From the NCBI GenBank assembly GCA_032622095.1, contig CP136062.1:202333959-202397958 (forward strand): a DNA stretch of 64,000 bases. Reading direction: 5' to 3'. Below the pieces are notes generated by a model, which was given only the letters and a program-made list of their open reading frames with translations, did no database searches and had not been told where the DNA came from. Shown one piece after another: positions 1,503 to 60,530 of the stretch. Numbering within the stretch: the first letter of the stretch is position 1; each line of letters starts with the position of its first letter. This DNA is from Siphonodentalium dalli (taxonomy: Eukaryota > Mollusca > Scaphopoda > Gadilida > Siphonodentaliidae). A program made the translations under genes and the position numbers.

Positions 1503-1872
1503 TTAACCCTTTACCCAACAGAAGGGCCATTTGCCAATGCATTCTCTTATATATGCGAGTCGACCATAGGTCGCCTCGCATATATAAGAGAATGCATTGG
1601 CTTAACACATTAAAAATTATAAAATTGTTAAAGAATGTAAGAAAAAAATGGTCAATGCATTCTCTTATATATGCGAGGCGACCTATGGTCGACTCGCATA
1701 TATAAGAGAATGCATTGGCACAGGGCATAACTGTAACTATCACAATGTGGTCAAGGAGCCGGTTCCAATGATACCCATATTTGTATGGTTCTATTGAGAC
1801 AGACCGAAGATATTTTATGCTGTTGAAGCTTTATTTGGCCGGTTTTGGCCGGTTTGTTGGGTAAAGGGTTAA
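1503..1872 (+). mobile_element. T1 copy 1: TTAA-flanked double-hairpin MITE
   Basis: The element starts TTAA-CCCTTTACCCAACA and ends TGTTGGGTAAAGGG-TTAA. A TTAA target duplication with CCC-starting inverted ends is the piggyBac superfamily pattern, so this is a piggyBac-like MITE by inference. Inside are two ~69-bp hairpins, 1533-1601 and 1652-1719. The second is the reverse complement of the first, with an AT-rich spacer between them. A right-hand segment of about 150 bp (unique to T1) contains a tandem GGCCGGTTTT motif. There is no transposase frame, so it must be mobilised in trans if at all. Confidence 0.85.
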
Positions 1873-2055
1873 ACAGACCTATACCACAAACTATTGTTAT
1901 AACTCTCAAGAGACCAGTATTGGAATCTGTGTTTTAGAGAAGTTATCGAAAGCTTGTCCATTCAACTCTGTCTCTGATTCTGGATAATATATCATCTGGT
2001 TGGCTATTGAAATTATTTGCACAAAACTGCCACCAAATTACATTCTCATCTTCCC

Positions 2056-2245
2056 AATGACTAAGAAAAGTTTGTCATTATGACCCAATAAATATAGTAT
2101 ATTAGTCATTGTGACTAAGATACGAATTAGTCATCATGACTAAGATTGTAAATTCGTCAGAATGAACAAGAGAAGTTAGCTGAGTTACGGACACATATCT
2201 GACTAATCAATCTTAGTCATAATGACTAAGTTTTTTCTCAGTGAG
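2056..2245. repeat. TTAGTCA/TGACTAA-rich degenerate repeat, cluster B
   Basis: This has at least five near-palindromic joins of the type TTAGTCAT..TGACTAAG (for example near 2103-2122, 2125-2145 and 2214-2231). It is the same vocabulary as cluster A at 887-1260 but without a clean period. The two clusters lie either side of T1 copy 1, so they may be one older repeat field. Confidence 0.55.
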
Positions 2246-2605
2246 CGCACTGCACGAAGTAGTGTTTGGTGACATTCCAACCTTTGTGATCTGTCCATCC
2301 CTACGAATGGCTGAATGGAAATTCATAAGGTTCTGTCTTTTGTTTCGGTCCCAACAACGAAGGACAGACAACTGCAATGTTTGATTTTGGAACTGATTGT
2401 CCTCTAATGGCTGCTATAGAGTGAAATGACTCCAATGTAATGAATGTATTTGATCTTCTAGATTGGACGTTTTAACGTTTGTTTCAAAATCGCCGACTGT
2501 TGCACATAATCCTCGTGTGTGTCGCTTTCAAAATGTCACTAGTGGAGATAATCAGCTGCAGTGACAAGTTTTGCATTAACAGTATAATCGCTACGTTCTC
2601 ATATT

Positions 2606-3013
2606 TTAACCCTTTACCCAACAGAAGGGCCATGTGCCAATGCATTATCTTATATATGCGAGTCGACCATAGGTCGCCTCGCGCGCATATATAAGAGAAT
2701 GCATTGGCTTAACACATTAAAAATTATAAAATTGTTAAAGAATGTAAGAAAAAATGGTAAAAAGTGTTAAAAAAAGATTTTTTTAAAGCCAATGCATTCT
2801 CTTATATATGCGAGGCGACCTATGGTCGACTCGCATATATAAGAGAATGCATTGGCACAGGGCATAACTGTAACTATCACAATGTGGTCAAGGAGCCGGT
2901 TCCAATGATACCCATATTTGTATGGTTCTATATATTGAGACAGACCGAAGATATTTTAGGCTGTTGAAGCTTTATTTGGCCGGTTTTGGCCGGTTTGTTG
3001 GGTAAAGGGTTAA
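2606..3013 (+). mobile_element. T1 copy 2: TTAA-flanked double-hairpin MITE
   Basis: Full copy with TTAA on both sides and the CCCTTTACCCAACA / TGTTGGGTAAAGGG ends. It differs from copy 1 by a longer spacer (with GTTAAAAAAAGATTTTTTT) and by an extra GCGC in the distal arm of the first hairpin (near 2682-2686). It lies about 730 bp from copy 1 in direct orientation and is highly similar to it. Confidence 0.85.
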
Positions 3014-3849
3014 TGGCAATTTTCTCCTGTATCCAAGGAGTTGTAATTTACGACTTGGCGTTACTAAAAACAGCACAGACGCAGGGCGTATACTTAATTT
3101 ACCGACGCGTTTAAATAAATATTCTACCAAATCGGTTTCCCCAGATGGTCCCGTCTCCTGTTTTCTTGCTCAAAGATTTATTTATAGACGAGGCATGTGG
3201 ATACATTTGTCAAATGTCGGCACCGCCATAAAATTACGTCTTCGACATATTTGAGGTGTGTCCCGACATTCTCACCATTCATCGGATGGGTTTCTGAGCT
3301 ATTTACGTCCTCTGGGGAGGACACCTTTGTTGTTTGTATTGCGGAACTACCCTCTTTTCAATTCATTTTTGCAATAAGCTCCACTATGAGTTACGTGTTT
3401 GGCGTGTTTTGTTTTTTAATCTCGCCCACGTCTCAAAGAGGTTTATCATAAAAAACGAGGAGAAATTTACTAAAATTAGCAACATTGGGTACAATGTCTG
3501 ATTTTAAAGCTGGGAAACTAATTAAAACGTCAAGACCCACTGCCCACGATGTTGCTTCACCCGAACAAGTATATAGACTGCTCTTGTGTAGTTCCCTAGA
3601 ATGCTCAGGCTTACGTTCTGTGTGTGGGACTTTATACAAAGTAGAAGTCAGTGCAATTCAGAAATTAGATCAGAATGTTATTAAAGTTATTAGCCGACCA
3701 CGACTGAAACGATAAGGAGACATAGGCTACCCGGCCTGAAAATGAGTGAGACCAATGTTTTGTAAAGTTATACTTTCGATAGGATTCTTTTCCTCGGAGG
3801 TGAGTGGTTCTAGACAAATCTTCCATGTTTTGCACTTAAATTGATACGA
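3014..3849. other. no recognised feature
   Basis: Short overlapping open frames at 3197-3451 (plus, 84 codons), 3485-3715 (plus, 76 codons) and 3433-3639 (minus) lie here. None has a signature I recognise, and I see no splice-flanked homology to a known family. Confidence 0.4.
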
Positions 3850-13017: not shown

Positions 13018-13417
13018 TTAACCCTTTACCCAACAGAAGGGCCCTGTGCCAATGCATTCTCTTATATATGCAAGTCGACCATAGGTCGCCTCGCATATAT
13101 AAGAGAATGCATTGGCTTAACACATTAAAAATTATAAAATTGTTAAAGAATGTAAGAAAAAATGGTAAAAAGTGTTAAAAAAAGATTTTTTTTAGGCCAA
13201 TGCATTCTCTTATATATGCGAGGCGACCTATGGTCAACTCGCATATATAAGCGAATGCATTGGCACAGGGCATAACTGTAACTATCACAATGTGGTCAAG
13301 GAGCCGGTTCCAATGATATCCATATTTGTATGGTTCTATTGAGACAGACCGAAGATATTTTAGGCTGTTGAAGCTTTATTTGGCCAGTTTTGGCCGGTTT
13401 GTTGGGTAAAGGGTTAA
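13018..13417 (+). mobile_element. T1 copy 3: TTAA-flanked double-hairpin MITE
   Basis: Complete, with TTAA on both sides. It carries private substitutions: GCAAGTCGACC in the first hairpin and GGTCAACTCGC plus AAGCGAATGC in the second. The two G-to-A changes fall at matching positions of the inverted hairpins. It ends 410 bp upstream of the 33-bp satellite array. Confidence 0.85.
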
Positions 13418-13827: not shown

Positions 13828-15124
13828 ACAGCCTCCACCTATATATATATATACATCGGTCTTAGATATAACAGCCTCCACCTATACATCGGTCTTAGAT
13901 ATAACAGCCTCCACCTATACATCGGTCTTAGATATAACAGCCTCCACCTATACATCGGTCTTAGATATAACAGCCTCCACCTATACATCGGTCTTAGATA
14001 TAACAGCCTCCACCTATACATCGGTCTTAGATATAACAGCCTCCACCTATACATCGGTCTTAGATATAACAGCCTCCACCTATACATCGGTCTTAGATAT
14101 AACAGCCTCCACCTATACATCGGTCTTAGATATAACAGCCTCCACCTATACATCGGTCTTAGATATAACAGCCTCCACCTATACATCGGTCTTAGATATA
14201 ACAGCCTCCACCTATACATCGGTCTTAGATATAACAGCCTCCACCTATACATCGGTCTTAGATATAACAGCCTCCACCTATACATCGGTCTTAGATATAA
14301 CAGCCTCCACCTATACATCGGTCTTAGATATAACAGCCTCCACCTATACATCGGTCTTAGATATAACAGCCTCCACCTATACATCGGTCTTAGATATAAC
14401 AGCCTCCACCTATACATCGGTCTTAGATATAACAGCCTCCACCTATACATCGGTCTTAGATATAACAGCCTCCACCTATACATCGGTCTTAGATATAACA
14501 GCCTCCACCTATACATCGGTCTTAGATATAACAGCCTCCACCTATACATCGGTCTTAGATATAACAGCCTCCACCTATACATCGGTCTTAGATATAACAG
14601 CCTCCACCTATACATCGGTCTTAGATATAACAGCCTCCACCTATACATCGGTCTTAGATATAACAGCCTCCACCTATACATCGGTCTTAGATATAACAGC
14701 CTCCACCTATACATCGGTCTTAGATATAACAGCCTCCACCTATACATCGGTCTTAGATATAACAGCCTCCACCTATACATCGGTCTTAGATATAACAGCC
14801 TCCACCTATACATCGGTCTTAGATATAACAGCCTCCACCTATACATCGGTCTTAGATATAACAGCCTCCACCTATACATCGGTCTTAGATATAACAGCCT
14901 CCACCTATACATCGGTCTTAGATATAACAGCCTCCACCTATACATCGGTCTTAGATATAACAGCCTCCACCTATACATCGGTCTTAGATATAACAGCCTC
15001 CACCTATACATCGGTCTTAGATATAACAGCCTCCACCTATACATCGGTCTTAGATATAACAGCCTCCACCTATACATCGGTCTTAGATATAACAGCCTCC
15101 ACCTATACATCGGTCTTAGATATA
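13828..15124. repeat. 33-bp tandem array, 39 units
   Basis: One 43-bp edge unit (13828-13870, carrying a 10-bp TA expansion) is followed by 38 units of exactly 33 bp (13871-15124). Each unit starts ACAGCCTCCACCTATACATC. I saw no differences among the 38 units. Because 33 is divisible by 3 and the unit has no stop in one frame on either strand, long frames appear on both strands (plus: TASTYTSVLDI repeated). These frames follow from the periodicity and are not evidence of a protein. Confidence 0.97.
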
Positions 15125-15849
15125 AAACTCCTGTTGTTTCAGGCATGACACATATAACAGTTGATTAATTTGACCAAAATTGTGGGTGGTTGAGTCTTTT
15201 GACATATTAATGGTCGTAACAACTAAACACAGTTTTTTTTTTGCAGAATATATATATACCTTGTGTATACACACATAGATATACAACATAGATTAAAATT
15301 AACATACAAGATGTATCATTCGGGCACAAATGTGAAAAATACTGTAACTTGCCACAATTTCCCCCTGATATATACCACTCAATTTGCCCGATAATTGCCC
15401 AAATTTGACCGTTTATTGCTTGAACGTTGATCTTTCAAAACGTTTGGGGGGCTGAGAGGGCAGCCAGCCACCTGTACCGTGCGGGTGTGGTCGACATATT
15501 CATATAACCATACACCTTCGTGGGAGATACATCTTTAAATCTCGACGGGAGATCTTCTGTTTGTTGAAGTAGCCACACGCGTATACTTATAATTGAATGG
15601 CCGGTCGTCTGCTTTGTCGGTCGTACACGCGTGATTGACACGTATACGATAATAACCGATGGACTTTCCGCCAACTTCCGCATATTTCGGTCGATTGGCC
15701 TTATCGAGCTCTGGCGACTGGTATTGAATATATTCATGGCAATCTATTGCAAGGTAACTTGGATTAGCTATATAGGTATGACCAAAATCCCCAGCCTGTT
15801 CTCCTGAAAATAAGCTCACATTTATCGTATTTCAAAAACACAAATAAAC
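15125..15849. other. no recognised feature
   Basis: Two overlapping minus-strand frames (15435-15737, 100 codons; 15535-15819, 94 codons) are unrecognised. There is a TA-rich stretch at about 15249-15260. No gene call. Confidence 0.35.
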
Positions 15850-18145: not shown

Positions 18146-18363
18146 TACAGTATAGTGCTCTAAGTAATCGACTCCTTAACCACAGCAGAATTATTGGTAA
18201 CTTTTCAGGATTTAGTCGGAAATATGGCTTGTTGCCATTCATCGGAAAGCTCTCCCCAGAGCTTTCCGATGAATGGCAACAAGCCATATTTCCGACTAAA
18301 TCCTGAAAGGTTACCCATAATTCTGCTGTGGTTAAGGAGTCGATTACTTAGAGCATTACTGTA
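18146..18363. mobile_element. C copy 1: mariner-like foldback MITE
   Basis: Almost perfect palindrome: both halves carry AAGTAATCGACTCCTTAACC, CAGCAGAATTAT, AGGATTTAGTCGGAAATATG and GGCTTGTTGCCATTCATCGG, meeting at a few unpaired bases near 18255. The ends are TACAGT...ACTGTA. TA plus CAGT ends are typical of Tc1/mariner elements. The left terminus here has extra bases (TACAGTATAGTGC). Confidence 0.85.
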
Positions 18364-19140: not shown

Positions 19141-19345
19141 TTAACCCTTTCAGTGCCAAGTCCGATTTTTGTATTAACTCATATTTCCTTGATCATTTTT
19201 AAAGTTTATTGATTATAATAATGTGATACATTGATGGAAAGAGCTCTTGGAGCTCTTTCCATCAATGTCTCACATTATTATAATCAATAAATTTGAAAAA
19301 TGATCAAGGAAATATGAGTTGATACCTCAGCACTGAAAGAGTTAA
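19141..19345. mobile_element. TTAA-flanked foldback MITE
   Basis: TTAACCCTTTCAGTGCC on the left and GCACTGAAAGAGTTAA on the right. Arms of ~100 bp (ACTCATATTTCCTTGATCAT, ATTATAATAATGTGA, TTGATGGAAAGAGCTC) pair across a near-zero loop at about 19247. A single nearly perfect hairpin with piggyBac-type TTAA borders and no coding capacity. Confidence 0.8.
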
Positions 19346-22846: not shown

Positions 22847-22990
22847 TACAGTAATGCTGTAAATAATCGACTCCTTAACGACAGCAGAATTATGGGTAAC
22901 TTTTCAGGATTTAGTCGGAAATATGGCTTGTTGCTATTCATCGGAAAGCTCTCAGTGAGAGCTTTCCGATGAATGGCAACAAGCCATATT
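22847..22990. mobile_element. C copy 2, right arm truncated
   Basis: TACAGTAATGC and the whole left arm are present, plus the first ~35 bp of the right arm as far as AACAAGCCATATT. The rest of the right arm is replaced by the left end of the TIR element at 22986-23363. Confidence 0.8.
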
Positions 22991-23363
22991 ATATACAACA
23001 TCTTCCATGTTATATACCATTTGAACGAGGAAGCTGCACAACATTGTATTATCAACTTATCCGGTCGAATAATCTGTGAACATGTTTTTGTCAAGGTACC
23101 GACGTGTGTTCTTTGCTTAATTTCGATCTGGTCTATACTGTCAGTCTATTATTCTCAGTGGAAGGGGAATAACTATATCAATTAGTTGTGAATTATGATG
23201 CATTCTGGATAAATAACGGGGGAAGCCTTGGTGCGAATCTGAGAATCTCACTTGGTTGGCACTCCTAGTCCATAGAAACTGTTGTTCCGTATTCCGGTAG
23301 AATAAATATTTTTTTCGTTCCGCTTCCAAATGATATATAACATGGAATATGTCGTATATAATG
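22986..23363. mobile_element. 378-bp element with ~42-bp inverted ends
   Basis: ATTATATACAACATCTTCCA on the left pairs with complemented right end ATTATATACGACATATTCCA. Both continue as TGTTATATAYCATTTGRA. It abuts the broken C copy at its left end. No target duplication identified and no transposase. Confidence 0.6.
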
Positions 23364-23420
23364 TTATCTGGGCATTCAAACAAAAACTAATTGGGCCTTT
23401 AAGAGAGAATGTGTGGCGAT

Positions 23421-23754
23421 TACCCAACAGAACGGCCCTGTGCCAATGCATTCTCTTATATATGCGAGTCGACCATAGGTCGCCTCGCATATATAAGAGA
23501 ATGCATTGGCTTAACACATATTAAAAAATGATAAAATTGTCAAAGAATGTAGAAAAATATTATAAAAATTGTTAAAAAATGTAAGAACAAAATATAAAAT
23601 TGTTAAAGAATGTAAGCCAATGCATTCTCTTATATATGCGAGGCGACCTATGGTCGACTCGCATATATAAGAGAATGCATTGGCACAGGGCATAACTGTA
23701 ACCATCACAATGTGGTCAATGAACCGGTTCCAATGATATCCATATTTGTATGGT
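23421..23754 (+). mobile_element. T1 copy 4, both ends truncated
   Basis: Begins inside the left TIR (TACCCAACAGAACGGCCC) and stops at CATATTTGTATGGT, before the GGCCGGTTTT segment and the right TIR. Both hairpins are intact. The spacer is a tandem amplification of an ~35-bp AAAATTGTTAAAGAATGTA unit (about 23520-23615). Confidence 0.8.
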
Positions 23755-35160: not shown

Positions 35161-35240
35161 GTTACAGTGTGAGGGTACTCAAATCCAGTAAAGAGTAACA
35201 GCAAACTCCATCATAATAAAACACAGTTATTAACAACGCC

Positions 35241-35417
35241 ATAACCATTTCACGACGATAGCTGCACTGGTGCAGCATTAAATATCCTGTCCCGGTGTAT
35301 TCTCTTATATAAGAGCATGCACTGGATTACAAGGCGGGGGTAATTCTTTTACATATGCGAGACACAGTGTTTTCTCAAAATTTAAGTCCATGTAAGCTCC
35401 AGTCATGGAAGGGTTAA
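35241..35417 (+). mobile_element. T4 copy 1, degraded
   Basis: Left end ATAACCATTTCACGACG (mutated TTAACCCTTTCACGGCG), then AGCTGCACTGGTGCAGCATT and AAATATCCTG. The right end CTCCAGTCATGGAAGGGTTAA (in parts) keeps TTAA at 35414-35417. The first hairpin is collapsed to TATTCTCTTATATAAGAGCA and the second is nearly gone. Confidence 0.7.
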
Positions 35418-35689
35418 ACTACAACACAACTAAAAGTAAAGACGAAATGTACTTCAACAGAGAAATTATCAAAGTAGAGTTTCCATTCCAATTCCAACTC
35501 CGTGTCAAATCGAGCACAAAAATAGACACGTCGTCGAAGTGAACCTTGTAATACAGCGATGACGACGAAAAGTTACGTGTACTTCGACGACAGCATAAAG
35601 ATCGTGTGCACTGCAATACTCTCATTGGTTGTGACAACTGTAAATATATACATGTAACTGGAGACTGTGAATCAATGCGACTTTCGGCT

Positions 35690-39502: not shown

Positions 39503-39770
39503 TATTCCTTCCATGACTGGAGTTTCCTAAATTTAGCGAAACCCATGTACCAGTGCACAATGCATTGTCTTATATATGCGAGTCTCCCATATAGGAAGCC
39601 TCGGGTATATAAGAGAATGAATGCAATGGCCTAACAATGACTTGACCTTGTAAGCAAGTGCATATATGCAAGGCTCCCTATATATGGGAGACTCGCATAT
39701 ATAAGAGAATGCACTGGCACAGAATATTTAATGCTATACACCAGCGCAGCTCCCGTCGTGGAAGGGTTAA
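39503..39770 (-). mobile_element. T4 copy 2
   Basis: The right border GGGAGCTGCGCTGG (complemented) and TTAA at 39767-39770 are good. The left border TTATTCCTTCCATGACTGG is a mutated TTAACCCTTCCATGACTGG. It contains two hairpins: TATATATGCGAGTCTCCCAT paired with a CCTCGGGTATATAAGAGAAT arm, and CTCCCTATATATGGGAG paired with CTCGCATATATAAGAGAATG. The stem is like that of T1 but the loop sequence is different. Confidence 0.75.
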
Positions 39771-41362
39771 ACTGGTGTCCTCTCGTCCTTTTTGGTTTGT
39801 TCTTTGAAGCCACCCACTAACATGGATGTTGTATACATGTATAGTATCCCCGGATGTGTGTAAGGGTTTAGATCATGTCTCATCTGAGCCGGCGATACAT
39901 TAATAACATAAGGTTGAGTTTTCTGTCTCCGTATGGTAGTTGGCATAATTTTTGAGTTTGTATTATTTTAGTAGGACTCCTCCCAAGGCCTTCCAAGAAT
40001 GTTTTACTAGTGAAGATGCGTTTGCGGTTTCCATACTCCAAAGCTGTTCTCACCAACGTTCTTACCAGCCAATATTAACACGATTGGATATCGAAAGATA
40101 CTCAACCGGGGTTCACGATTAGATAGCGATTGATATTAAATCGCTATAATACGCCCCACGTGAGGTCATATGATTGAAGCTAGGATTATTGACCAAATAA
40201 CGGAGATGTTTGAAGAAGTGCTTTTATAGAGCTTTCGTAATATCCCGGTCCGGTTTCAAATATGCGAAACCCTTAATACTTACCGAGTTATGGCGCGATT
40301 ACATAATACATATATAATCTAGAGATACGGACCATTTTCTTCAAGATCAACATGGAACAATCAAGTTTTGCGGAGTACATATATAGTCTTGTATTGGAAG
40401 TTTGTGTAGTAATCGGCCCAATGTCATGGGTTAAGTTTTTGTAATGTATACATGTCTCCGTTTCTGTAGAATGATTGATATGCATGATGAAGAATGAGCG
40501 GCAGTTTTCTACAAAACAACCGGAACCGTAGATTATTCAACACTAAAACAGATTAATTCATCCTTGAATCTTTGAACTCTTATTGTGTGGTCTAATTTAC
40601 GTTATCACGCTCGTTTGTCATGCCGGGAGGCATAACTCGTGCGAACGAAAAACACCAGCTCGTCAACACACGTGTATCGTTCCATCTATTACATGCATGT
40701 ATACATATTCCGACATTTACATTATTCCTGCAGGTGTAATCCTTTAATTACCTGAGACATGTTGAGCTGGCACACAAATCGATGTTTGTCAGCACAGTGA
40801 CGTCCCGTGTGTTCTCGGGAGTATTAAGTTCACTTGTTTTCGGTATATTAAACTAAGATTGTATAAATCATAATTTACAGTTATCGTATTGTTCGTTATT
40901 TTAAGACATCGCGGCGGCTCAGTGTTGAGTGGAGATGTCACCGGTTGTTAAATTAGTTTACCTGAATTTTAATTGCAGAGATGTAGATCTGCGGTTTCAT
41001 CTTTTATTTCAACACCTCGCTTCGTTTCCGGATTCCATTTTTCATGATATATATAGTATATAAATATAAACAGTTATACTCTCAACTCATCGCAGTATAA
41101 ACAGTACATTCCTTTGCGATTTGTCTTAGTAATGAGAGTGGGCGCGATATTCGAAGCGGACTTGTAGCTGAGGACTTTATGTGAGGCGAACATGGTTTTT
41201 AACCATATATTGTTGACTATATATGTCATAGACTTTTTTGGAAATTTGAGCTGATACTATTAAAATCGCACGACGCGTGTGTCATAAACGGAATTAACAA
41301 GAATTCCAGGAAGTCCGTGAGTATTCATGTTTTTCCTGGTGAAATTTGGTGGAATTATACTC
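39771..41362. other. nothing assignable
   Basis: Only a short match to the centre of the 33249-33837 element (AAATAACGGAGATGTTTGAA at about 40196) was noted. No gene. Confidence 0.4.
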
Positions 41363-41572
41363 TTAACCCTTTCACGGCGGGAGCTGCGCTGGTGAAGCAT
41401 TAAATATCCTATGTTAGTGCAATCTCTTATATATGCGAGTCTCACATATAGGGGGCCTCGCATATATAAGATAATGCACTGGATTACAAGATTAAGGTAA
41501 ATTTTGTTAGGCCAATGTATTCTCTTATATATGCGAGGATCTATATGGGAGCCCCAGTCATGGAAGGGTTAA
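41363..41572 (+). mobile_element. T4 copy 3, best copy
   Basis: TTAA-CCCTTTCACGGCGGGAGC on the left and CCCAGTCATGGAAGGG-TTAA on the right. The first hairpin is complete (ATCTCTTATATATGCGAG, loop TCTCACATATAGGGGGC, CTCGCATATATAAGATAATG). The second is half deleted and stops in its loop (GAGGATCTATATGGGAG). TTAA borders and CCC starts again suggest piggyBac-type mobilisation. Confidence 0.8.
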
Positions 41573-42614
41573 AGAGTAAAAGATTAGTCCAATAATTATT
41601 TACGGTGTATCATTTGTTTGTGTTGATCGAGCTCTTCAATATTTATCTGAATGTTGATGACATCACATAAACAGTTGACAGGTTCAGCCACATGTACGTG
41701 TAACTTGTAACGTGTGTTGTCATTACCAACGGACTTCGCGTGATCATTTCGCCTACACATAAATGGTCAAACCATTTAGAAGTGTTGTGTCCAGCGTGTG
41801 GTACACGACACTTGCAGCGTAGAGGAATAATCCAATATTCTGATACCCGAATGAGCAATCAACGCTGTATTTGATTGAATGAAATTAAAACGTATCGGTG
41901 GACCCATTGTGGCCGCTTGTCGCAACCCGAATATTATTTACAAGTTTTACTAGACGTTGGTCGATGTCTATAAACTATTGGTTTGGCGACGTAAATTCAC
42001 ATGACCGTTCCCGTCATGTCCATAGCAATAGTATAGTAACACGCGTTATATTATACCATGTATGGCTTATCATAATGTTGACAACATAGTTTGTGTAATG
42101 TGCGAGTGTATTCAATATATGATTGCTCATATTCTGTTAATTTTGTTTGGTATTTTCAGGATAGTTTTATTTGTAGACATTTTCCCCGAGACCAACTAAA
42201 TTTCGTTTGGGACACCAACGTAATACACTCGCGTTTAAAGTACACAATCCGATTCGATGCATGGTCACCATATATATCATCAGATTCCAAAAACAAAATT
42301 CTTGAAATGCCGCTTCATTTATCCCAATCGATTAATTGCCAAAAAAATTCTAACCACTGTTAACAATTGTATAAAATTGTCAAAAAAAAGGTGTTATATA
42401 TCAACATTTTGTTCAACGCAATTTGGTATATCGAGAGTATGTCGGACATTAATCGAATATTTGTCAGGCCGCCATATGTTCGAGGTGGTGAAAAATAACA
42501 TTTCTAAACTCGAAATCTGATAACTCTGGGCTTTGATAGGTGGCTTCCTCGACTCAAATCTAATATTTGTTTACCCACGGAGCCGCAGAAAGAAGAAATA
42601 GTAATGTAGGGGCG
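41573..42614. other. no recognised feature
   Basis: The overlapping plus frames 42091-42363 and 42257-42520 (about 90 codons) are unrecognised. Confidence 0.35.
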
Positions 42615-42977
42615 TTAACCCTTTACCCAACAAAACCGGCCAAATAAAGCTTCAACAGCCTAAAATATCTCCGGTCTGTCTCAATAGAACCATACAAATA
42701 TGGGTATCATTGGAACCGGCTCATTGACCACATTGTGATGGTTACAGTTATGCCCTGTGCCAATGCATTCTCTTATATATGCGAGTCGACCATAGGTCGC
42801 CTCGCATATATAAGAGAATGCATTGGCCTAAAAAAAATCTTACATTTTTTAACAATTTTATAATTTTTAATGTGTTAAGCCAATGCATTCTCTTATATAT
42901 GCGAGGCGACCTATGGTCGACTCGCATATATAAGAGAATGCATTGGTACAGGGCCCTTCTGTTGGGTAAAGGGTTAA
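42615..42977 (-). mobile_element. T1 copy 5: TTAA-flanked double-hairpin MITE
   Basis: Complete and in minus orientation: TTAA-CCCTTTACCCAACAAAAC at the left and GTTGGGTAAAGGG-TTAA at the right. The spacer is short. Both hairpins are intact. Confidence 0.85.
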
Positions 42978-45831: not shown

Positions 45832-46048
45832 TACAGTAATGCTCTAAGTAATCGACTCCTTAACCACAGCATAATTATGGGTAACTTTTAAGGATCTAGT
45901 CGGAAATATGGCTTGTTGCCATTCATCGGAAAGGTCTCCCAGAGAGCTTTCCGATGAATGGCAACAAGCCATATTTCCGACTAAATCCTGAAAAGTTACC
46001 CATAATTATGTTGTGGTTAAGGAGTCGATTACTTAGAGCATTACTGTA
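45832..46048. mobile_element. C copy 5
   Basis: 217-bp palindrome, TACAGTAATGC to GCATTACTGTA. Both arms share a private change, CATAATTATG in place of CAGAATTATG. The left arm has in addition TTTTAAGGATCTAGTC not mirrored on the right. Confidence 0.85.
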
Positions 46049-46909: not shown

Positions 46910-47298
46910 TTAACCCTTTACCCAACAGAAGGGCCCTGTGTCAATGCATTCTCTTATATATGCGAGTCGACCATAGGTCGCCTCGCATATATAAGAGAAT
47001 GCATTGGTTTAACACATTAAAAATTATAAAATTGTTAAAGAATGTAAGAAAAAATGGTAAAAAAAGATTTTTTTTAGTCCAATGAATTCTCTTATATATG
47101 CGAGGCGACCTATGGTCGACTCGCATATATAAGAGAATGCATTGGCACAGGGCTAACTGTAACTATCACAATGTGGTCAAGGAGCCGGTTCCAATGATAT
47201 CCATATTTGTATGGTTCTATTGAGACAGACCGAAGATATTTTAGGCTGTTGAAGCTTTATTTGGCCGGTTTTGGCCGGTTTGTTGGGTAAAGGGTTAA
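46910..47298 (+). mobile_element. T1 copy 6: TTAA-flanked double-hairpin MITE
   Basis: Complete copy with TTAA at both ends. The second hairpin has a CCAATGAATTCTC change in one arm, and the junction after it reads CACAGGGCTAACTG (CAT lost). Confidence 0.85.
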
Positions 47299-48823
47299 GC
47301 AGTATAGATATAAGATAACTTTCAGTCAGAGGCACACGCCAACAGCAGCTTCTATTACCAATAATTGACATTTGCTCATTTGGACCACACATCGATCCGT
47401 TCGAAAATAACAAACGCATGCATCAAATTAATAAAGATAATAAATAAAGATAATGAATAAAGATAAACCAGTAGATCTAGGGAAAAAATAAATAAATAAA
47501 ATTTACAGAATATATACGTATAAATACGTATATGTACGCTATATATAGAAAGTCATATGTCACATGCATGCGGATATACGCTGGATCGGTGTTCTTTATT
47601 GCCCCAGACATATTTCGCACACACATGATCGTAGTTATTTGCAGTAGAAGAACGTCTTTAACAGTTATGTCTTATTAACGTAGAGGGTTGTTTGGAGACC
47701 GCCGTCTGCTCAAATACACTGATTGATTTTACAGCAGGTGATTATGCTGATTTACACAAACTTTTTCGAAGATACTGACTCAAAAGAGTCTACACTAATC
47801 ATTTCATATAACAAATATGTTGGTGTTGTTGTAAGTGATATTCAACGTGTCCGGGAAGAGATATCACGTCTTTAGTGATAAATTAACTAATCCCTTTCTT
47901 TGCGAAGTACACAAAAAATTTAAACCGCAGTTGACGTACGACGCGTTATTTCACGAACCAGCCAATGGTATTGCAATTGGCGATAAACATGTTATCCCGT
48001 CCATCACTCACTGAATTGCATTGCAATGCAGATCGACTGAGAGCAATAAGGAGCGATAAATGTCTCAACGCTACATTAATAGCGGGTAAGCGTATCATAT
48101 TATGTTGTATCGAATAACCATAATAACAGAGTGTCCCTTTGTTGGGTCGCCGTTAAATGATAATTCTTTTTAGATAAAACCTCATGTCGACTTTTAATGA
48201 CTGACTTCTGAGCTATTGCTGGAGTCGTCTTACTCGAGAGGCCCATTCAACTTTCATCTTAGATACTAACAGCGATGTCATGATATCCGTAAAAATCCGA
48301 CGTTTTGCTTGTTAGTTAGGAGTGACGGTCTGTAGTCGTACGAACTAGCAATGTTAAGAATGTGAACCAACGCAAGTAGTCGGTCGCGCATTGCGAAAAC
48401 TTCGATTTGATTCAAGACTGAATATATATTAGATTTCTTTTGTCCGTGATGAAATCCATACAGGACTAAATTACTTGCATTCAATTCCAATGGAAAAATA
48501 TGTGTTAATATAAAGCATTTTCTTGTACAAAAAGATCCTGTCCCGGGAGGGGGTGGGGGCAAATACTTATACCGTATGTCGATAAATAAGTTGAGTACTT
48601 TTGTACGGAGTGGATACCCCACATGCATGTAAACACATCCTGACTGTAACCCGAGTCACATAACTTGCCCCTGGAAAAATGAAAGATTGATAAGTTATGG
48701 TTTAACGCTATGCCATATCACGACAGAAACAGATCGTCAAAAACAATTGTGGCGAAGCAGCTGTTTACATAAATCAGACATGGGATCAAACTAAAAATAT
48801 GACTTACATATTTACAAGTAATA
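47299..48823. other. little recognised; A-rich ATAAAGATAA run at 47430-47500
   Basis: A low-complexity (AATAAAGAT)n-like run lies at about 47428-47500. A minus-strand frame of 116 codons (48628-48278) is unrecognised. Otherwise nothing. Confidence 0.4.
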
Positions 48824-48991
48824 CACCCTTCTGATTGGAGCTTCCTGAAATTTTGCGAAAACCATGTGCCAATGTATTCTCTTATATATGCCTTGACATT
48901 GTGAGTAGTACATTCTATTACATATGCGAGGTGCATGGAGCGCATGACCTTTAATGCTGGACCAGCGCAGCTCCCGCCATGAAAGTGTTAA
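48824..48991 (-). mobile_element. T4 copy 4, hairpins largely lost
   Basis: Right border GGACCAGCGCAGCTCCCGCC then ATGAAAGTG-TTAA. Left border ACCCTTCTGATTGGAGCTTC is the diverged CCCTTCCATGACTGGAG end. TGCCAATGTATTCTCTTATA marks the remaining half hairpin. Confidence 0.65.
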
Positions 48992-49260: not shown

Positions 49261-49327
49261 ATTATAAAGAGCGTACATATAAGTCGATTAAGGTTAATTT
49301 TGAGTGTAAACAAAGTATGCCGACATA

Positions 49328-49785
49328 TGACCCGCCATATCAAATCCAGTCGTAAAGTCGGGATTTTTTTACCCTGTGCCAATGCATTCTCTTATATATG
49401 CGAGTCGACCATAGGTCGCCTCGCATATATAAGAGAATGCATTGGCCTAACAATTTTTTATCATTTTTTTTAAATAAATGTTTCTTACAATTTTTAGGAC
49501 ATAAAATAAAAAACATCCATTACCATGCAGGGAGCCCCACACATATATAGAAGCACATAGAAGAGTGTCGTCTGTTCATGTTTGTCTGGGGCTCTGTATG
49601 GGTGAAATTATAAAATTGTTAAAGAATACAAGAAAAAATTATTAAAATTGTAAAAAATTGTTAGGCCAATGCATTCTCTTATATATGCGAGGCGACCTAT
49701 GGTCGACTCGCATATATAAGAGAATGCATTGGCACAGGGTGAAAAAAATCCCGACTTACGACTGGATTTGATATGGCGGGTCACA
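49328..49785 (+). mobile_element. T2 copy a: double-hairpin MITE with TGTGACCCGCC ends
   Basis: Long terminal inverted repeats: GACCCGCCATATCAAATCC, AGTCGGGATTTTTTT, ACCCTGTGCCAATGC, then a hairpin identical to that of T1. The spacer is unlike T1 in its middle (GGGAGCCCCACACATATATA, TTGTCTGGGGCTCTG) but T1-like at one side (AAATTGTTAAAGAAT). A second inverted hairpin and the right TIR follow. The left tip has lost two bases. TA precedes it (49326-49327). Confidence 0.85.
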
Positions 49786-50724: not shown

Positions 50725-51020
50725 AAACCATGTGCCAATGCATTCTCTTATATAGGAGAATGCTTTGGCCTAACACATTTTATATTATGTTTTATAACGG
50801 TTAAAGAATGTAAGAAAAGATGATAAAAATTTATATTTATTGTTAAAGAATGTAAGAAATAATGAGAAAAAATGAGAAAAATTAGGAAAAAATGAGAAAA
50901 AAAAAAGAGAATTTGTTTAAAGAATATCAGAAAAAATGAATTTTTTTTTTATGGAATGTAAGAAAAAGTTATTCAAAAAACGATAAAAATTGTTAAAGAA
51001 TGTAAGAAAAAATTTAAAAT
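50725..51020 (+). mobile_element. solo half-hairpin with expanded spacer (T1/T2-derived)
   Basis: TGTGCCAATGCATTCTCTTA TATAGGAGAATGC is a collapsed hairpin (50734-50770). After TAACACATTTTATATT comes a run of TGTTAAAGAATGTAAGAAA units to about 51020, the T1/T2 spacer motif amplified with G/A-rich filler. There is no second hairpin and no TIR of either family. Confidence 0.6.
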
Positions 51021-52291
51021 ATGATAATAAACCCCAGTCCTTAACCAACTCACCTATCTGGTCATTCCACCCTATTACTGCCCTGTCCTTGGATCAGGAT
51101 GGCCCGAGAGAAAACGTTATGCAATGTACGGGAGAATACTCTAGTCTTATTCTGGATAAATACTTGGCACCAGCAGGCAAGCATATAGCATCAGCGTAGT
51201 GTCGTGTCGGATCTAAAAGGTTCTAAATGTATGGAGGGGTGTCGACGGCTGGATGCTTTTGCGCACTCTTAAAGTTCAGGGTATCTTCAACATGATACAT
51301 TCTGATACATTCAGCAACAATACGACATCAATTAGGCATATGTTGTCGCAGCAGTCTCATTAAAATACTAAATATTTACTAAGTCAATTGATATTATATA
51401 TGCTAGAGTTATTTCTATGGTGTATGCTGCACATTGGATAATAAGTGCACATTAGTGCAGATGGCGCACACTGCAGTAGGCCACTGGAAACTATGGTTGT
51501 TGTTATTGTTTGTATGATCTGAACCAATTGGAGTTGGTGGGTTCTTGTTGTGCAAGGGGTTTGGGGCCCTTCTATATTACCTCACGGCTTGATACTGCTG
51601 CTGTTTGATCTGGAGTGTGTATGCACTTAAGGCGTGTGGGGCATTATGTCAGAATGGACGTCTTCGGCGAAGGAATTTTTGTTTAATTATGTATACCGTA
51701 TTCGGAGATATAATCCACTGGTTACCTCTTGGCCGAGAAACCAGTCACGTCGGATTTAAGTACAGCTGGCTTTCTGGTTTTTTTTAAAGAAAATATATGA
51801 AGATAAATGGAGATAATATTCTGGTCACCGCGACATGCACTTGAGTATCTACACAATCGTGTTATCAGATTTGAGGTTCAAAATCAGGAACGTTGGGAAT
51901 TTCAAGAATGATTATACTACATTGTTTTGGACATTTTAATATAAATTTAATTGATATTATGTGATATCCAGGTGACATAATTTAATATGAAACATTCTGC
52001 ACTTAGTTGTAAATTTCCGACATGGAAGACAAGACGCTTCAATATCTTGAGTGACTTCACAGCCGTGCTACATTTATGGGTCAGAACCAAGATATTTGCA
52101 AGTTTCAAGCGTGAACGATATACTTGCATAAAATCCTTAGATAACAGTTTCTGACTTTCGAAATCTGAAATCTGAAATCTTTCATATCAAATAGGGGCGG
52201 TAATGATCGCAAAGTTTTTATACTAAATTTGAAATTCGTTGAACTAGTGTCAGACAACTTTTACTTGAGGAAAGGGTTCCATGTGGAGTTT
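51021..52291. other. no recognised feature
   Basis: No gene or shared repeat. All frames are under 75 codons. Confidence 0.4.
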
Positions 52292-52383
52292 GCAGAATGA
52301 GGTCCCCATAGGGTGAATTTAGTTATGCTATCCCGCATAGCGGACTAGCATCACTAAATGCATCCTATGGGACCTCATTCTGC
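52292..52383. repeat. 92-bp foldback, GCAGAATGAGGTCCC arms
   Basis: GCAGAATGAGGTCCCCATAG pairs with CTATGGGACCTCATTCTGC, with further pairing inward. A sister hairpin is at 52548-52638, 165 bp away. Possibly a tiny MITE. Confidence 0.75.
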
Positions 52384-52547
52384 TTAGGCCCAATATTCTC
52401 TGGAACGTTTCTTTATTATCAAATTTCTATAGAAAGTTATTCACATAGATCCCATTTCTGTTCAGTTTAGTTTCTCTATTTCCCAAATTGGCAGACGACA
52501 CATTGCATAACCGAGGTTCCCAATGGGTGTACATCACAATATCATCA

Positions 52548-52638
52548 CAGAATGAGGTCCCAATATGGTGAATTTGTTGATGCTAGCCCGCTGTGCAGGA
52601 TAGTGCCACTAAATTCACCATCTTGGGACCTCATTCTG
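52548..52638. repeat. 91-bp foldback, sister of 52292-52383
   Basis: CAGAATGAGGTCCCAATATG pairs with ATCTTGGGACCTCATTCTG and has GGTGAATTT/AAATTCACC inside. The sequence between the arms differs from the first hairpin. Confidence 0.75.
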
Positions 52639-52703
52639 CAAATGACAGGCACACTTAACTCAGGCTTGCCTAGGCGGAGCTCCAAAATAACATATGAACC
52701 CCT

Positions 52704-53078
52704 CCCTTTACCCAACAAACCGACCAAAAACGGCCAAATAAAGCTGCAACAGCCTAAATTATCTTGGGTCTGTCTCAATAATATGGATATCATTGGAACC
52801 GGCTCATTGACCACATTGTGATGGTTACAGATATGCCATGTGCCAATGCATTCTCTTATATATGCGAGTCGACCATAGGTCGCCTCGCATATATAAGAGA
52901 ATGCATTGGCCTAAATTTTAACACTTTTTACCATTTTTTCTTACATTCTTTAACAATTTTATAATTTTTAATGTGTTAAGCCAATGCATTCTCTTATATA
53001 TGCGAGGCTACCTATGGTCGACTCGCATATATAAGAGAATGCATTGGCACAGGGCCGTTCTGTTGGGTAAAGTGTTAA
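52704..53078 (-). mobile_element. T1 copy 7, left TTAA lost
   Basis: Minus orientation. CCCTTTACCCAACAAACCG at the left is preceded by CCCCT where TTAA is expected; the right end GTTGGGTAAAGTG-TTAA keeps it with one TIR mismatch. Both hairpins are present, with one change (GAGGCTACC). Sequence resembling a T5 end (TTAACCTTTTCTATACTAAA) starts in the same right TTAA. Confidence 0.8.
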
Positions 53079-54503: not shown

Positions 54504-56580
54504 TGTGACCCGCCATATCAAATCCAGTCGTAAGTCGTTTTTTTTTTACCCTGTGCCAATGCATTCTCTTATATATGCGAGTCGACCATAGGTCGCCTCG
54601 CATATATAAGAGAATGCATTGGCCTAACAATTTTTTATCATTTTTTTTAAATAAATGTTTCTTACAATTTATAGGACATAAAATAAAAAAACATCCATTA
54701 CCCTGCCGGGAGCCCCACATATATATAGAAGCATATAGAAGAGTGTCGTCTGCTCATGTTTGTCTGGGGCTCTGTATGGGTGAAATTATAAAATTGTTAA
54801 AGAATACAAGAAAAAATTATTAAAATTGTAACAAAATTGTTAGGCCAATGCATTCTCTTATATATGCGAGGCGACCTATGGTCGACTCGCATATATAAGA
54901 TAATGCATTGGCACCAGGGGGGGGGGGTCGCGCACAAAAATTCCATATATGAGGCGGGGGTGGGTGGGTCATTTCACCCGGAAAAAATGCGTAAATGACC
55001 AAAAATGCAAATTTTTTCCTCCACTTAAAATCACTGTTTTTGTGTTCATGTAATCTGTTAATATCAACCATATGACACACTATGCTATTTAAAACATACT
55101 AACCAGAACTAACTACCATTTAGGGGTGTATGTATGCTGATGTATGTCAAAATTAATGTACCAGATTTCGACGGATGAAAGATATATTATATAAGCATAA
55201 TTATGAAATGCATGATTACCATCTTCTGTTCTTAATCCACATAATGGATATTATTTGTTATCAAGATAAACTTGATGATACAAACAAAAATAACAGTTCC
55301 ACTATATTCCACTGGTTTAAAACTATAAAACAAAATAACTCATACAAAAAGTTCATACTATTTGGATAACAGTATGAAAACTTAGCCTTTTGTGATATTA
55401 AATCAACCACAGTTATTATTCACAAGTCTAAGCAGTTAGGTACTGTACACATACCTGTAATAAGGTAGTATATCTTGGAGTTCCAGTTATTTGACTGCCA
55501 ATACATATGGTATTGTAATTATTAGTTGTTTGTTCATTATTGGTTGCTTTGATATTCAATTTAGGATATAGCAGGATAGAGCAATGTAACTATAAAAGTA
55601 GCTTTTGGTATTAAAGTCTCAACTTATTCCATATGCAACATAAAGCTAGAATATAAACATGACTAATATGAACTTTGTTCTTGAAACTAATTATAAATCA
55701 TACTAACCTGGATCAAACTGCACAGGTAATCTATGCAACTCTCTTCATGCGAACTTTCTCAGAGTCACATATCTCAACTGAACAGTCTGATCCAGGATGC
55801 TTGTTCTTATAATGGGTTTCCATGTGATACGTCCAGTAAACCACATTGCACAGGGGTGCCTACATGTATACAGACGGTTTGTACAAGGTGACCGTGGCTT
55901 GGATATCTCTGCTGGCTTTAAACTAAACTTTATACTCTGATAATAAGTTAATAATACTACCAATTTTTCGCTAATATTGGTATATGTCAATCTGCAAACC
56001 AACATGACATACATACATGTATTTAGACTGAGCTGCTGTGAGTGTGACTTTCCTTGGCTTGGGTCCCAGATGAAATTTGTTCTACCCCTATTACTACAGT
56101 ATTACTATTGGGCCTTGACTCTAAAACATCTTATACTATTGTTATATAAAAGAATATGGAGTTATTGAGGATATCAGGAAATGTATTACCTCGTAATTAT
56201 TATGTTTTATGGCATTATGCCCAATGTTTTTAAGTGCATGCGTTCAGCATTTCCACATTTTATACTAATAGAATTATCTCCCTTTAGGTTTACTAAAATG
56301 CTGGGAATAGTATTAAATAATAAGAAATGGAACAATTCTTTGCTAGGCTTTGATTTGGTTTATATTTTATGTTTTTTGTAAGATTTTGGGGGGTGGGTCC
56401 CAAAAATTGGGCGGAAAAAAAAAGAAAAAAATTGCAGGTAGAGGGGTGGTGGGTCCCCGAAAGGGGCAAAAACATTTTTTTCGCCCTATATATGTAAAAA
56501 AAAATCCGCGACCCCCCCCCCCTGTTGGCACAGGGTAAAAAAATCTCGACTTACGATTGGATTTGATATGGCGGGTCACA
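54504..56580 (+). mobile_element. T2 copy b, split by a hAT-like insertion
   Basis: The left part 54504-54914 has the TGTGACCC end, both hairpins and the T2 spacer. The right part 56525-56580 resumes at TTGGCACAGGGTAAAAAA and runs to the TTGATATGGCGGGTCACA end followed by TA. Between them lies the 1.6-kb element 54915-56524. The three uninterrupted T2 copies show the original junction GCATTGGCACAGGGT. Confidence 0.9.
54915..56524. mobile_element. 1.6-kb hAT-like insertion with poly-G ends
   Basis: Left end CAGGGGGGGGGGGTCGCG and complemented right end CAGGGGGGGGGGGGGTCGCG, then CATATATGAGGCG / CATATATAGGGCG, form a ~42-bp imperfect TIR. ATTGGCAC is on the left (54907-54914) and TTGGCAC on the right (56525-56531), which fits an 8-bp target duplication that has lost one A. 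CAGG ends plus an 8-bp duplication favour hAT. The interior has only short frames and no transposase I recognise, so it is non-autonomous. Confidence 0.75.
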
Positions 56581-56773: not shown

Positions 56774-56990
56774 TACAGTAATGCCCTAAATAATCGACTC
56801 CTTAACCACAGCAGAATTATGTGTATTTTTTCAGGATTTAGTCGGAAATATGGCTTGTTGCCATTCATCGGAAAGCCCTCAGTGAGAGCTTTCCGGTAAA
56901 TGGCAACAAGCCATATTTCCGACTAAATCCTGAAAAATTACACATAATTCTGCGGTGGTTAAGGAGTCGATTATTTAGGGCATTACTGTA
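56774..56990. mobile_element. C copy 6, variant subfamily
   Basis: 217-bp palindrome with TA borders. Both arms carry GCCCTAAATAATCGACTCC and the inner change ATTATGTGTA, neither found in most copies. A few unmatched changes exist (GGTAAATGG, TGCGGTGG). Confidence 0.85.
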
Positions 56991-57362: not shown

Positions 57363-57367
57363 ATATA

Positions 57368-57757: not shown

Positions 57758-58217
57758 TGTGACCCGCCATATCAAATCCAGTCCGTAAGTCGGGATTTTT
57801 TTTACCCTGTGCCAATGCATTCTCTTATATATGCGAGTCGACCATAGGTCGCCTCGCATATATAAGAGGATGCATTGGCCTAACAATTTTTTACAATTTT
57901 AATAATTTTTTCTTGTATTCTTTAACAATTTTATAATTTCACCCATACATAGCCCCAGACAAACATGAGCAGACGACACTCTTCTATGCTTCTATATATG
58001 TGTGGGGCTCCCTGCAGGGTAATGGATGTTTTTTATTTTATGTCCTAAAAATTGTAAGAAACATTTTTTTTTTTTTAAATGATAAAAAATTGTTAGGCCA
58101 ATGCATTCTCTTATATATGCGAGGCGACCTATGGTCGACTCGCATATATAAGAGAATGCATTGGCACAGGGTAAAAAAAATCCCGACTTACGACTGGATT
58201 TGATATGGCGGGTCACA
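57758..58217 (-). mobile_element. T2 copy c
   Basis: 460 bp from TGTGACCCGCCATATC to GATATGGCGGGTCACA, with TA immediately outside both ends (57756-57757, 58218-58219). The spacer is in minus orientation relative to copies a and b. Both hairpins are intact, with one change (AGAGGATGC). Confidence 0.9.
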
Positions 58218-58288
58218 TATACTTAGACCCCTGAACGGTTTGATGTCTGAAAATATGTGCTGTATTTATACATCCTGGTCCCATTCTT

Positions 58289-58371
58289 GGGGGGGGGGGG
58301 CAAACATTGTATCACCAATAACGTTAATGTTTTATTGGTGGTGCCCCCGGGGGTGATGGGTGGGGGCAGGG
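58289..58371 (+). other. G-rich tract with possible G-quadruplex
   Basis: A G12 run (58289-58300) and the run GGGGGTGATGGGTGGGGGCA GGG (58349-58371), which has four G3+ blocks with loops of 1-4 bases. Between them ATCACCAATAA pairs with TTATTGGTGGT. Structure is inferred from motif only. Confidence 0.6.
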
Positions 58372-59069
58372 TGTGTGTTTCTATGTGGTATTTGGGGCGG
58401 GCCACCAACCCATGCCACCCAAATTGACCGAAAGAGACATTTTTGAGAATAAGGAATAAGTTCCAAATGTCATGTTCGTCAAACGGATGGGGATTCTGAA
58501 ATCCATTTAATCAATCTTTGACCATTGGGGAACATGGCACACAGTCGTTCATTGAGGTCGAGGCCTTGCGTGCATGTAGACTGATTCGGTAAGTCAAAAT
58601 CGATCCTCGGCTCAGGGGGGTATTGGAATATCGGCGATTGCGTAATGATTTGGATCATTCTAATCTGACTCCGTGGACGTGATATCACGTGTGCGGCACG
58701 CATTCTGTCGCATGTTGTTGAATATATTGTCTACATGATAACACCCCCACACTACTCTAATTCAGAGGCTTCGAATGGCATAGGCTACAATGTACACCAG
58801 TTATGATTAAATCCGTACTCAAACACATCCGCGTACGCGTTTGAGTATGGTTTTAATAAGAACTGACTGTACACCTAATCCTCATAACGATGTCCCGGTC
58901 TCCTCGGATCACAGTATAGTGCTAATGCAATAACAAAACACTAGTTTATTCTTACATCATGACATTGCGTATTTGGGTTTTTTTTTAAATTACAAAATAA
59001 ATGCAACCAGCACATGACAAACAACAAGAGCAGTGTTTGGATGTGCAATATAGCACTGGGAAACTATTC
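58372..59069. other. no recognised feature
   Basis: A short inverted repeat around GTACTCAAACACATCCGCGT / ACGCGTTTGAGTATGG lies at 58816-58852. Otherwise nothing. Confidence 0.4.
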
Positions 59070-59135
59070 AAATTTACGATGGGGATGTGATAAATTTACG
59101 ATGGGGATGTGATAAATTTACGATGGGGATGTGAT
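59070..59135 (+). repeat. 22-bp minisatellite, 3 units
   Basis: Three identical units starting AAATTTACGATGGGGATGTG at 59070, 59092 and 59114. Confidence 0.95.
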
Positions 59136-59369
59136 AAATTGATAAATAGTCAATTGTGCTATCTGTTCGATATTCAGGCTATGGTCATTGAACAATTAGG
59201 AGAACGTTAGTTTTCTATTAACTACATCGATAAACGTGCCTCTTCTACTGTGGTTGCTATGGACCGAATTCGGAATATAGTTTCGTTGGGATGGTATAAC
59301 ATGCACGAGGTAAGTATCGTTTTCTCTCACCTATAAAAGCATCACAGCTCACAATCAACTTACGGGTCA

Positions 59370-60071
59370 GTCTGTTCTCGTGAAAATAAGCACATAACGG
59401 GCATATTTTAACCCTTTACCCAACAAAACGGCCAAAACCGGCCAAATAAAGCTTCAACAGCCTAAAATATCTTCGGTCTGTCTCAATAGAACCATACAAA
59501 TATGGATATCATTGGAACCGGCTCCTTGACCACATTGTGATAGTTACAGTTATGCCCTGTGCCAATGCATTCTCTTATATATGCGAGTCGACCATAGGTC
59601 GCCTCGCATATATAAGAGAATGCATTGGCCTAAACAAATTCTTTTTTTAACACTTTTTACCATTTTTTCTTACATTCTTTAACAATTTTAGAATATTTTC
59701 TTACATTTTTTAACAATTTTTATAATATTTTTCTACATTCTTTAACAATTTTAGAATTTTTAATATGTGTTAAGCCAATGCATTCTCTTATATATGCGAG
59801 GCGACCTATGGTTCTGTTGGGTAAAGGGTTAATGAGCGAAATACGCTCGTGTTGGTATTATTTAACCTCAATGTGTATATGCGCCCTATATATGGACATA
59901 AAACGCGTTTTTTTAAAACAATTCGATAAGAGACTATTTCATCCCACATACGCCCGTATTGGCATTATTTAATCTATCTTTTTTCTTTATAATGTTTTTT
60001 CACTGCGACCCGCGCCATTCAATGGAATAACGAGTATATATGCTTATTATGGGCTTATTTCAGAACATATA
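59370..60071 (+). repeat. G-family copy interrupted by T1
   Basis: TCTGTTCTCGTGAAAATAAG and CACATAACGGGCATATTTTA (to 59411), then after the T1 copy TGAGCGAAATACGCTCG, AAAACGCGTTTTTTTAA, CACTGCGACCCGCGCCATTC and GGGCTTATTTCAGAAC. The same order without a T1 is at 17085-17240. T2 copy d follows, and G-like sequence (TTTGCATGAGGATATG) resumes at about 60545-60580. Confidence 0.7.
59408..59832 (-). mobile_element. T1 copy 8, inserted in a G repeat, one hairpin half deleted
   Basis: TTAA-CCCTTTACCCAACAAAAC on the left and TTCTGTTGGGTAAAGGG-TTAA on the right. The first hairpin (59565-59632) is complete. The right-hand hairpin stops at its loop (GAGGCGACCTATGG) and jumps directly to the TIR. The spacer is expanded to about three units of TTAACAATTTTARAAT. 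Confidence 0.85.
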
Positions 60072-60530
60072 TGTGACCCGCCATATCAAATCCAGTCGGA
60101 AGTCGGGATTTTTTTACCCTGTGCCAATGCATTCTCTTATATATGCGAGTCGACCATAGGTCGCCTCGTATATATAAGAGAATGCATTGACCTAACAATT
60201 TTTTAACATTTTAATAATTTGTTCTTGTATTCTTTAACAATTTTATAATTTCACCCATACAGAGCCCAGACAAACATGAGCAGACGACACTCTTCTATGT
60301 GCTTCTATATATGTGTGGGGCTCCCTGCAGGGTAATGGACGTTTTTTGATTTTATGTCCTAAAAATTGTAAGAAACATTTATTTAAAAAACATGATAAAA
60401 AATTGTTAAGCCAATGCATTCTCTTATATATGCGAGGCGACCTATGGTCGACTCGCATATATAAGAGAATGCATTGGCACAGGGTAAAAAAAATCCCGAC
60501 TTACGACTGGATTTGATATGGCGGGTCACA
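60072..60530 (-). mobile_element. T2 copy d
   Basis: 459 bp, TGTGACCCGCC to GGCGGGTCACA, with TA on both sides (60070-60071, 60531-60532). Small changes only (GTCGGAAGTCG in the left TIR, CTCGTATATATAAG in the first hairpin). It lies between two parts of G-family sequence. Confidence 0.9.

Follow-up and report, generated by a model that had tools for sequence, protein, structure and literature searches.

The stretch of DNA analyzed here (the window) is a 64-kb piece of the genome of the scaphopod mollusc Siphonodentalium dalli (assembly GCA_032622095.1, contig CP136062.1), which contains 17 elements built around a double-hairpin core. This core is non-coding and consists of a 69-bp hairpin present in two inverted copies, separated by an AT-rich spacer that contains tandem repeats, and the elements that carry it, most of which fall into three families designated T1, T2 and T3, cover ∼6.0 kb or 9.4% of the window (excluding the insertion in one T2 copy at 54504). 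All results come from these 17 elements in a single window. The window has a G+C content of 38% with zero N and reads as eukaryotic, gene-poor DNA: a search of it for tRNAs found none, Rfam gave zero matches at gathering scores, a Pfam search of 10 of its reading frames gave nothing above the cut-off, and the longest frame with a common start is at most 151 amino acids when the frames of a 33-bp tandem repeat are set aside. The composite structure of the core-bearing elements is confirmed, and a model in which the core is exchanged between transposon families is modestly supported.

Results

The T1 and T2 families

The T1 family, with ends CCCTTTACCCAACA, comprises seven elements with both ends (355–417 bp from one terminal motif to the other) and an eighth copy that has decayed. 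The motif CCCTTTACCCAACA is present at both ends of the seven elements, one end having one mismatch, and when up to two mismatches are allowed these ends account for 14 of the 15 matches, the 15th (at 22570, two mismatches) being unpaired. Five of the copies with TTAA on both sides lie at 1503–1872, 2606–3013 and 13018–13417 on the plus strand (by their end motifs, copies 1507, 2610 and 13022, of which the second has a 4-bp insertion in its left hairpin), at 42615–42977 on the minus strand (copy 42619), and at 46910–47298 on the plus strand (copy 46914). Copy 52704 (52700–53078, minus strand) has TTAA on one side only, copy 59412 (59408–59832, minus strand) has lost the outer half of one hairpin by a deletion from near the tip into the arm, and the decayed copy (23420–23754, plus strand) has decayed or lost termini with both hairpins intact.

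The T2 family, with ends TGTGACCCGCC, is represented by eight end matches that make up four elements, three of them ∼460 bp long and one measuring 2077 bp through an inserted element. They lie at 49326–49785 (plus strand, flanked by ca on both sides), 54504–56580 (plus strand, aa and ta, with the insertion in the second hairpin), and 57758–58217 and 60072–60530 (both minus strand, TA on both sides). The two arms of each T2 copy are near-perfect inverted copies of each other (41/45 to 46/47 matching positions per copy), hence the core sits at the center of a palindrome, and, judged from these arms, taking the core out of T2 would leave an almost perfect palindrome of ∼92 bp. The junction between arm and core is the same on both sides in all four copies, nested insertion aside.

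Other palindromic elements occur in the window, some with loops of 1–4 nt (designated I4, I5, I6, I8, and I17). One family of palindromic miniature inverted-repeat transposable elements (MITEs), with ends that are mostly TACAGTAATGC, is found at 18156–18355, 22914–22994, 32546–32732, 38067–38283, 45832–46048, and 56774–56990; some of these are nearly loopless, and the members at 22914 and 32546 are either shorter than the rest or less perfect. A further palindromic element at 19145–19345 has a CCCTTTCAGTGCC end and TTAA at its right side, and is perhaps another TTAA-type MITE.

One core between unrelated arms

In all 12 T1 and T2 elements the core has the same order, CCCTGTGCC or a variant of it, the 69-bp hairpin, the AT-rich spacer, the inverted hairpin and GGCACAGGG, and one of the 12 is incomplete (T1 copy 59412, with its half hairpin). 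The motif CCCTGTGCC occurs 18 times in the window compared to 0.09 expected, a number reached in none of 100 shuffles, and all 18 matches are inside T1 or T2 elements. The hairpin has a single unpaired T/C position and a 3-nt loop, and the unpaired T and C are invariant across all 26 aligned hairpins. DNA folding of four hairpins (two each from T1 and T2) yielded energies between −36.1 and −38.8 kcal/mol, whereas their shuffles averaged −6.5 to −7.6 kcal/mol (z = −14.7 to −15.9).

Majority consensus sequences from the aligned eight T1 and four T2 copies do not differ at any of 150 bp in their hairpins (a 75-bp segment on each side), whereas their spacers have eight mismatches in 60 aligned positions (Fisher p = 3e-5 relative to the hairpins) and consensus lengths of 78 bp in T1 and 218 bp in T2, a difference of 140 bp. 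The sequence TTGTTAAAGAAT is common to the spacers of both families, apart from a single differing base in the T1 copy at 42615. On each side the match between the families breaks off at one and the same base, at CCC and GGG, and beyond it the alignment of the arms is at shuffle level, with equally high scores in 130 to 487 of 500 shuffles. The sequence-only reading of this DNA had proposed that T1 and T2 combine unrelated termini with a common core and nearly identical 69-bp hairpins, which is what was found, without the grading of T1 and T2 ends into one another that common descent of the whole elements would give, and the finding extends to the third family, T3. The core as described there was to include the spacer, which is true of TTGTTAAAGAAT but not of spacer length and sequence. 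Of the target sites that it assigned, TTAA is present on both sides in six of the eight T1 copies, the other two being one-sided or truncated, while TA is clear in only two of the four T2 copies (57758 and 60072), given the ca/ca and aa/ta flanks of the others.

A second double-hairpin element of unrelated sequence (GCAGAATGAGGTCCC...), present in the window as a single copy, lies at 52289–52642 and consists of two inverted copies of an imperfect hairpin, with 83-bp arms that are 81% complementary and 188 bp apart. Double-hairpin architecture may recur in this genome.

A third and older family

The T3 family, an older TTAA family found by weaker copies of the hairpin, consists of four elements, perhaps five, with a diverged core. 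The four lie at 35240–35418 (plus strand, one recognizable hairpin), 39504–39771 (minus strand, both hairpins, one having a deletion in the inner stem), 41361–41575 (plus strand, second hairpin lost from close to its tip onward into the arm), and 48822–48991 (minus strand, collapsed hairpins). TTAA is present on both sides of the element at 41361 and on one side of the other three. The T3 ends, CCCTTTCACGGCGGGAGC and CCCTTCCATGACTGGAGC, are different from those of T1 and T2 and contain short inverted ends starting with CCC (CCCTTTCACGG / CCCTTCCATGA). The T3 arms have only TTAACCCTTT in common with T1 and nothing above shuffles in common with T2. Their hairpins are nevertheless homologous, with a mean identity of 0.77 to T1 and to T2, a value calculated from three T3 hairpins with the collapsed or halved ones, and the halved hairpin of T1 copy 59412, excluded. 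At the hairpin tip, CTCCC..GGGAG in the best T3 hairpin corresponds to CGACC..GGTCG in T1 and T2, such that two adjacent pairs are changed on both sides.

The possible fifth T3 element is an old core remnant at 50728–51035 (plus strand), which has an expanded T1-like spacer, one collapsed hairpin and uncertain ends; its weak resemblance to a T3 flank (p = 0.02) is one of 12 comparisons. The left flank of T5 is not considered to be related to T3 (p = 0.19).

Arm and core combinations and hairpin losses

The T1 copies can be sorted by arm type (C,T or T,G), which is set by two nearby bases in the right arm, and by their spacer, which is either short or expanded with an extra TA. All four combinations are present among the eight copies. 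The C,T arm occurs with the expanded spacer in the decayed copy at 23420 and with the short spacer in copies 42619 and 52704, and the T,G arm occurs with the expanded spacer in copy 59412 and with the short spacer in copies 1507, 2610, 13022, and 46914. In addition, copy 52704 has diverged arms around a near-consensus core (10 changes in 152 arm positions and two in 218 core positions, target bases excluded; p = 0.005, uncorrected, one of eight copies tested).

Several hairpins have been shortened. In those at 35285 and 50728 the tip is missing, the loss lying between TATATA repeats in the stem, and in two others (junctions near 59812 and 41551) a stretch that runs from close to the tip into the arm is gone. 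The collapse in the element at 48.9 kb is more complex than loss of a tip. A general rule by which hairpins are better conserved than arms after insertion was considered and rejected, as young T1 copies change more in their hairpins than in their arms.

Search for solo cores and coreless elements

Among the 17 core-bearing elements in the window there is no clear solo core, the remnant at 50728 having uncertain ends, and no coreless T1 or T2 element was found in the window, where blastn searches with T1 and T2 arms gave only core-bearing copies. A covariance model built on the hairpin, which gives scores to unrelated palindromes as well, returned 97 rows in the window, and those below 50 bits were left out of the count of homologues unless they fell on hairpins known from blastn (such as 50728, 35285, and the second strand of the element at 39.6 kb). 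With filters off, this search found no hairpin above 50 bits outside T1, T2, and T3; the weaker rows were inspected in part (those at 17825, 26199, 17395, 58803, and 7019, for example, were not). No target duplication flanking the core consistently in T1, T2, and T3 was found. The core is flanked by AAGGG and CATAAC in T1 and by AATAT and GAAAA in T3, without a duplication, and by TA on both sides in T2; the last is automatic, because arms that are inverted copies of each other, like those of T2, give a self-complementary dinucleotide there. Setting the core boundary one base shorter gives GC/GC in T1 and AC/GT in T2. Independent transposition of the core therefore finds no positive evidence in these 64 kb, which are too short a stretch for rejecting it. 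Exact-pattern scans of viral contigs gave zero matches, and a 16-mer scan of genome contigs gave 21 stretches in bacterial records with one match each, which were taken as chance.

Discussion

The explanation that we favor, tentatively and at slightly less than an even chance, is that T1, T2, and T3 are composite MITEs in which a fold-back module was captured or exchanged by break repair or gene conversion, with a core that apparently does not transpose alone. The three families would be non-autonomous, non-coding DNA transposons, and their ends would decide which transposase moves each of them: judging from TTAA and the CCCTT ends, T1 and T3 were probably moved by a TTAA-cutting, piggyBac-like transposase, while T2 may have depended on another transposase, whose 2-bp target was mostly TA. 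Where an extruded hairpin breaks, or excision leaves a gap, the damage could then be repaired from another core-bearing element by gene conversion or template switching, which would keep the hairpins uniform across families with unrelated ends. A T3-like element may have been the source of the core in T1 and T2, and T2 could have arisen when a core was captured during break repair at the center of a palindromic MITE. A review is available on cruciform cleavage and template switching at palindromes (PMC7999016).

The exchange reading is favored because of the arm/core mosaics in T1 and because hairpin losses remove the tip or break at it. The four arm/spacer combinations, together with copy 52704, would reflect cores moving between arms, a conclusion that is modestly supported, and the tip losses are what hairpins forming in cells would be expected to leave. 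Of the two routes offered by the sequence-only reading, an independently mobile core and capture by recombination at the palindromes, the second is therefore moderately favored, while the first lacks both a clear solo core and a consistent duplication at the flanks. There is also evidence that weighs against exchange. The arm types depend on two nearby bases, with few copies and few sites, and the arm base at consensus position 300 cuts across the two types; the spacer, being a tandem repeat, could have expanded and contracted repeatedly. Copy 52704 is the only one of eight in which the core, with hairpins and spacer combined, is significantly less changed than the arms, in a test that was picked after the alignment had been seen. 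Copy 59412 has the opposite pattern (16 changes in 205 core positions and one in 146 arm positions), which is due partly to misalignment at its deletion and partly to its expanded spacer, and the other six T1 copies do not differ significantly between arms and core. In the four young T1 copies changes are more frequent in the hairpins (12/600) than in the arms (4/683; p = 0.04), and the T3 hairpin at 39656–39724 has a stem deletion that is away from the tip. Moreover, neither a T1/T2 hybrid with one arm from each family nor a direct exchange between T1 and T2 was seen in the window.

The uniformity of the hairpins has another potential explanation, which is that they are functional for the elements or their transposases, as a binding site, a replication pause or a source of small RNA, and that selection on source copies rather than exchange keeps them identical while the ends are replaced. 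We consider this unlikely, though it accounts for the absence of changes between T1 and T2 hairpins (0/150) next to those in the spacers (8/60), for the conserved T/C mismatch and for the two adjacent near-tip pairs in which T3 differs from T1/T2 at both bases, some of the T3 hairpins still being paired there. Both the covariation score and the number of double-changed cells exceed those of all 500 shuffles, but the number of double-changed pairs (three) is reached by 74 of 500 shuffles and that of pair types by 58 of 500, and related sequences can beat such shuffles without any structure. Constraint alone also does not yield the four arm/spacer combinations.

That the core itself is, or was, a DNA transposon with ends CCCTGTGCC...GGCACAGGG and the hairpins as long terminal inverted repeats, which landed in the ancestors of T1, T2, and T3 and then became a passenger, appears distinctly improbable. 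It would explain why the sequence shared by T1 and T2 has identical limits on either side, which fall at an inverted repeat, and the TA/TA flanks in T2 and the GC/GC flanks obtained with the shorter core in T1 could be read as its target duplications. The former, however, follow automatically from the inverted arms, the latter become AC/GT in T2, and the T3 boundaries have no duplication; all intact hairpins above 50 bits are within T1, T2, or T3, and the arm searches gave core-bearing copies only. Least probable, and in our view very much so, is ordinary nested insertion followed by decay, whereby a core-bearing element inserted into another family and lost its own termini. Nesting does take place in the window, as the T2 hairpin at 54504 demonstrates, but no remnant of a T1 or T3 arm is present between the T2 arm and the core, and the arm/core junction is uniform among the four T2 copies. 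The insertion in that hairpin (54918–56520, ∼1.6 kb), with ends CAGGGGGG...CCCCCCTG and TTGGCAC on both sides, looks hAT-like.

Exchange could also have a wider meaning, namely that the core is a vehicle-independent passenger without a transposase that is copied across DNA transposon families and transposase classes by means of breaks at its own palindromes. This is a doubtful proposition at present; if true, the core would be a parasite at a third level and would correspond, among DNA transposons, to the central domains of short interspersed elements (SINEs). It is usual to define MITE families by their ends and to regard them as deletion derivatives of a single autonomous element. A module common to elements with unrelated ends and with signs of arm/core mosaics would imply that the interiors of MITEs can evolve separately from their ends, and would provide a natural record of recombination at palindromes.

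Relation to known elements

Short inverted ends starting with CCC are typical of piggyBac. Both T1 and T3 begin with CCCTT and, with TTAA on both sides of six of the eight T1 copies, these two families fit piggyBac-like MITEs by target and ends. T2, with TA/TA flanks in two copies, ca/ca in one and aa/ta in one, was compared with Tc1/mariner-like MITEs and is left unassigned. According to the part of PMC11707139 considered here, the ends of piggyBac and piggyBat contain short palindromic transposase sites of 14–19 bp, whereas the palindromes of the core are 69 bp long and are common to a family that does not use TTAA, and no transposase was seen in the window. A conserved middle module between different ends is also known from the CORE, V, Deu, and Ceph central domains of SINEs and from chimeric SINEs, which the relevant portion of PMC3272025 attributes to template switching by reverse transcriptase. 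SINEs are retroposons, however, while T1, T2, and T3 look like DNA elements that have both target duplications and fold-back hairpins. The Foldback-like element Galileo, of the P superfamily, likewise has long inverted repeats, and its structural diversity has been explained by template switching, ectopic recombination and the repair of gaps, but as far as the sections drawn on from PMC4168063 go, that variation is within one element with 7–8 bp duplications, rather than one core in families with unrelated ends. By analogy, the core may work in the manner of the shared SINE central domains and of the repair-driven variation of foldback-type elements.

Repeated and paired hairpins are found in the double-hairpin and repetitive hairpin-forming elements of mitochondrial DNA, which, in the extract of PMC2800124 that was used, lack transposon ends. 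In the present case the hairpins are inverted copies within transposon ends, and no intact core was free-standing as the mitochondrial pairs are. The sequence-only reading had stated that no family with such an arrangement was described, and no equivalent was found in the open-licence papers searched, which is weak evidence of absence; the statement is to be narrowed by the free-standing double-hairpin elements just mentioned (PMC2800124, same extract).

Other features of the window

An inverted repeat at 33249–33837 has 206-nt arms that are 89% complementary and 177 nt apart. A reading frame at 28266–28778 has a sub-threshold match to zf-RVT and may belong to a decayed long interspersed element (LINE). 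The 33-bp tandem repeat occupies 13850–15125, with 38.7 copies and 100% matches, and is open in frames on both strands.

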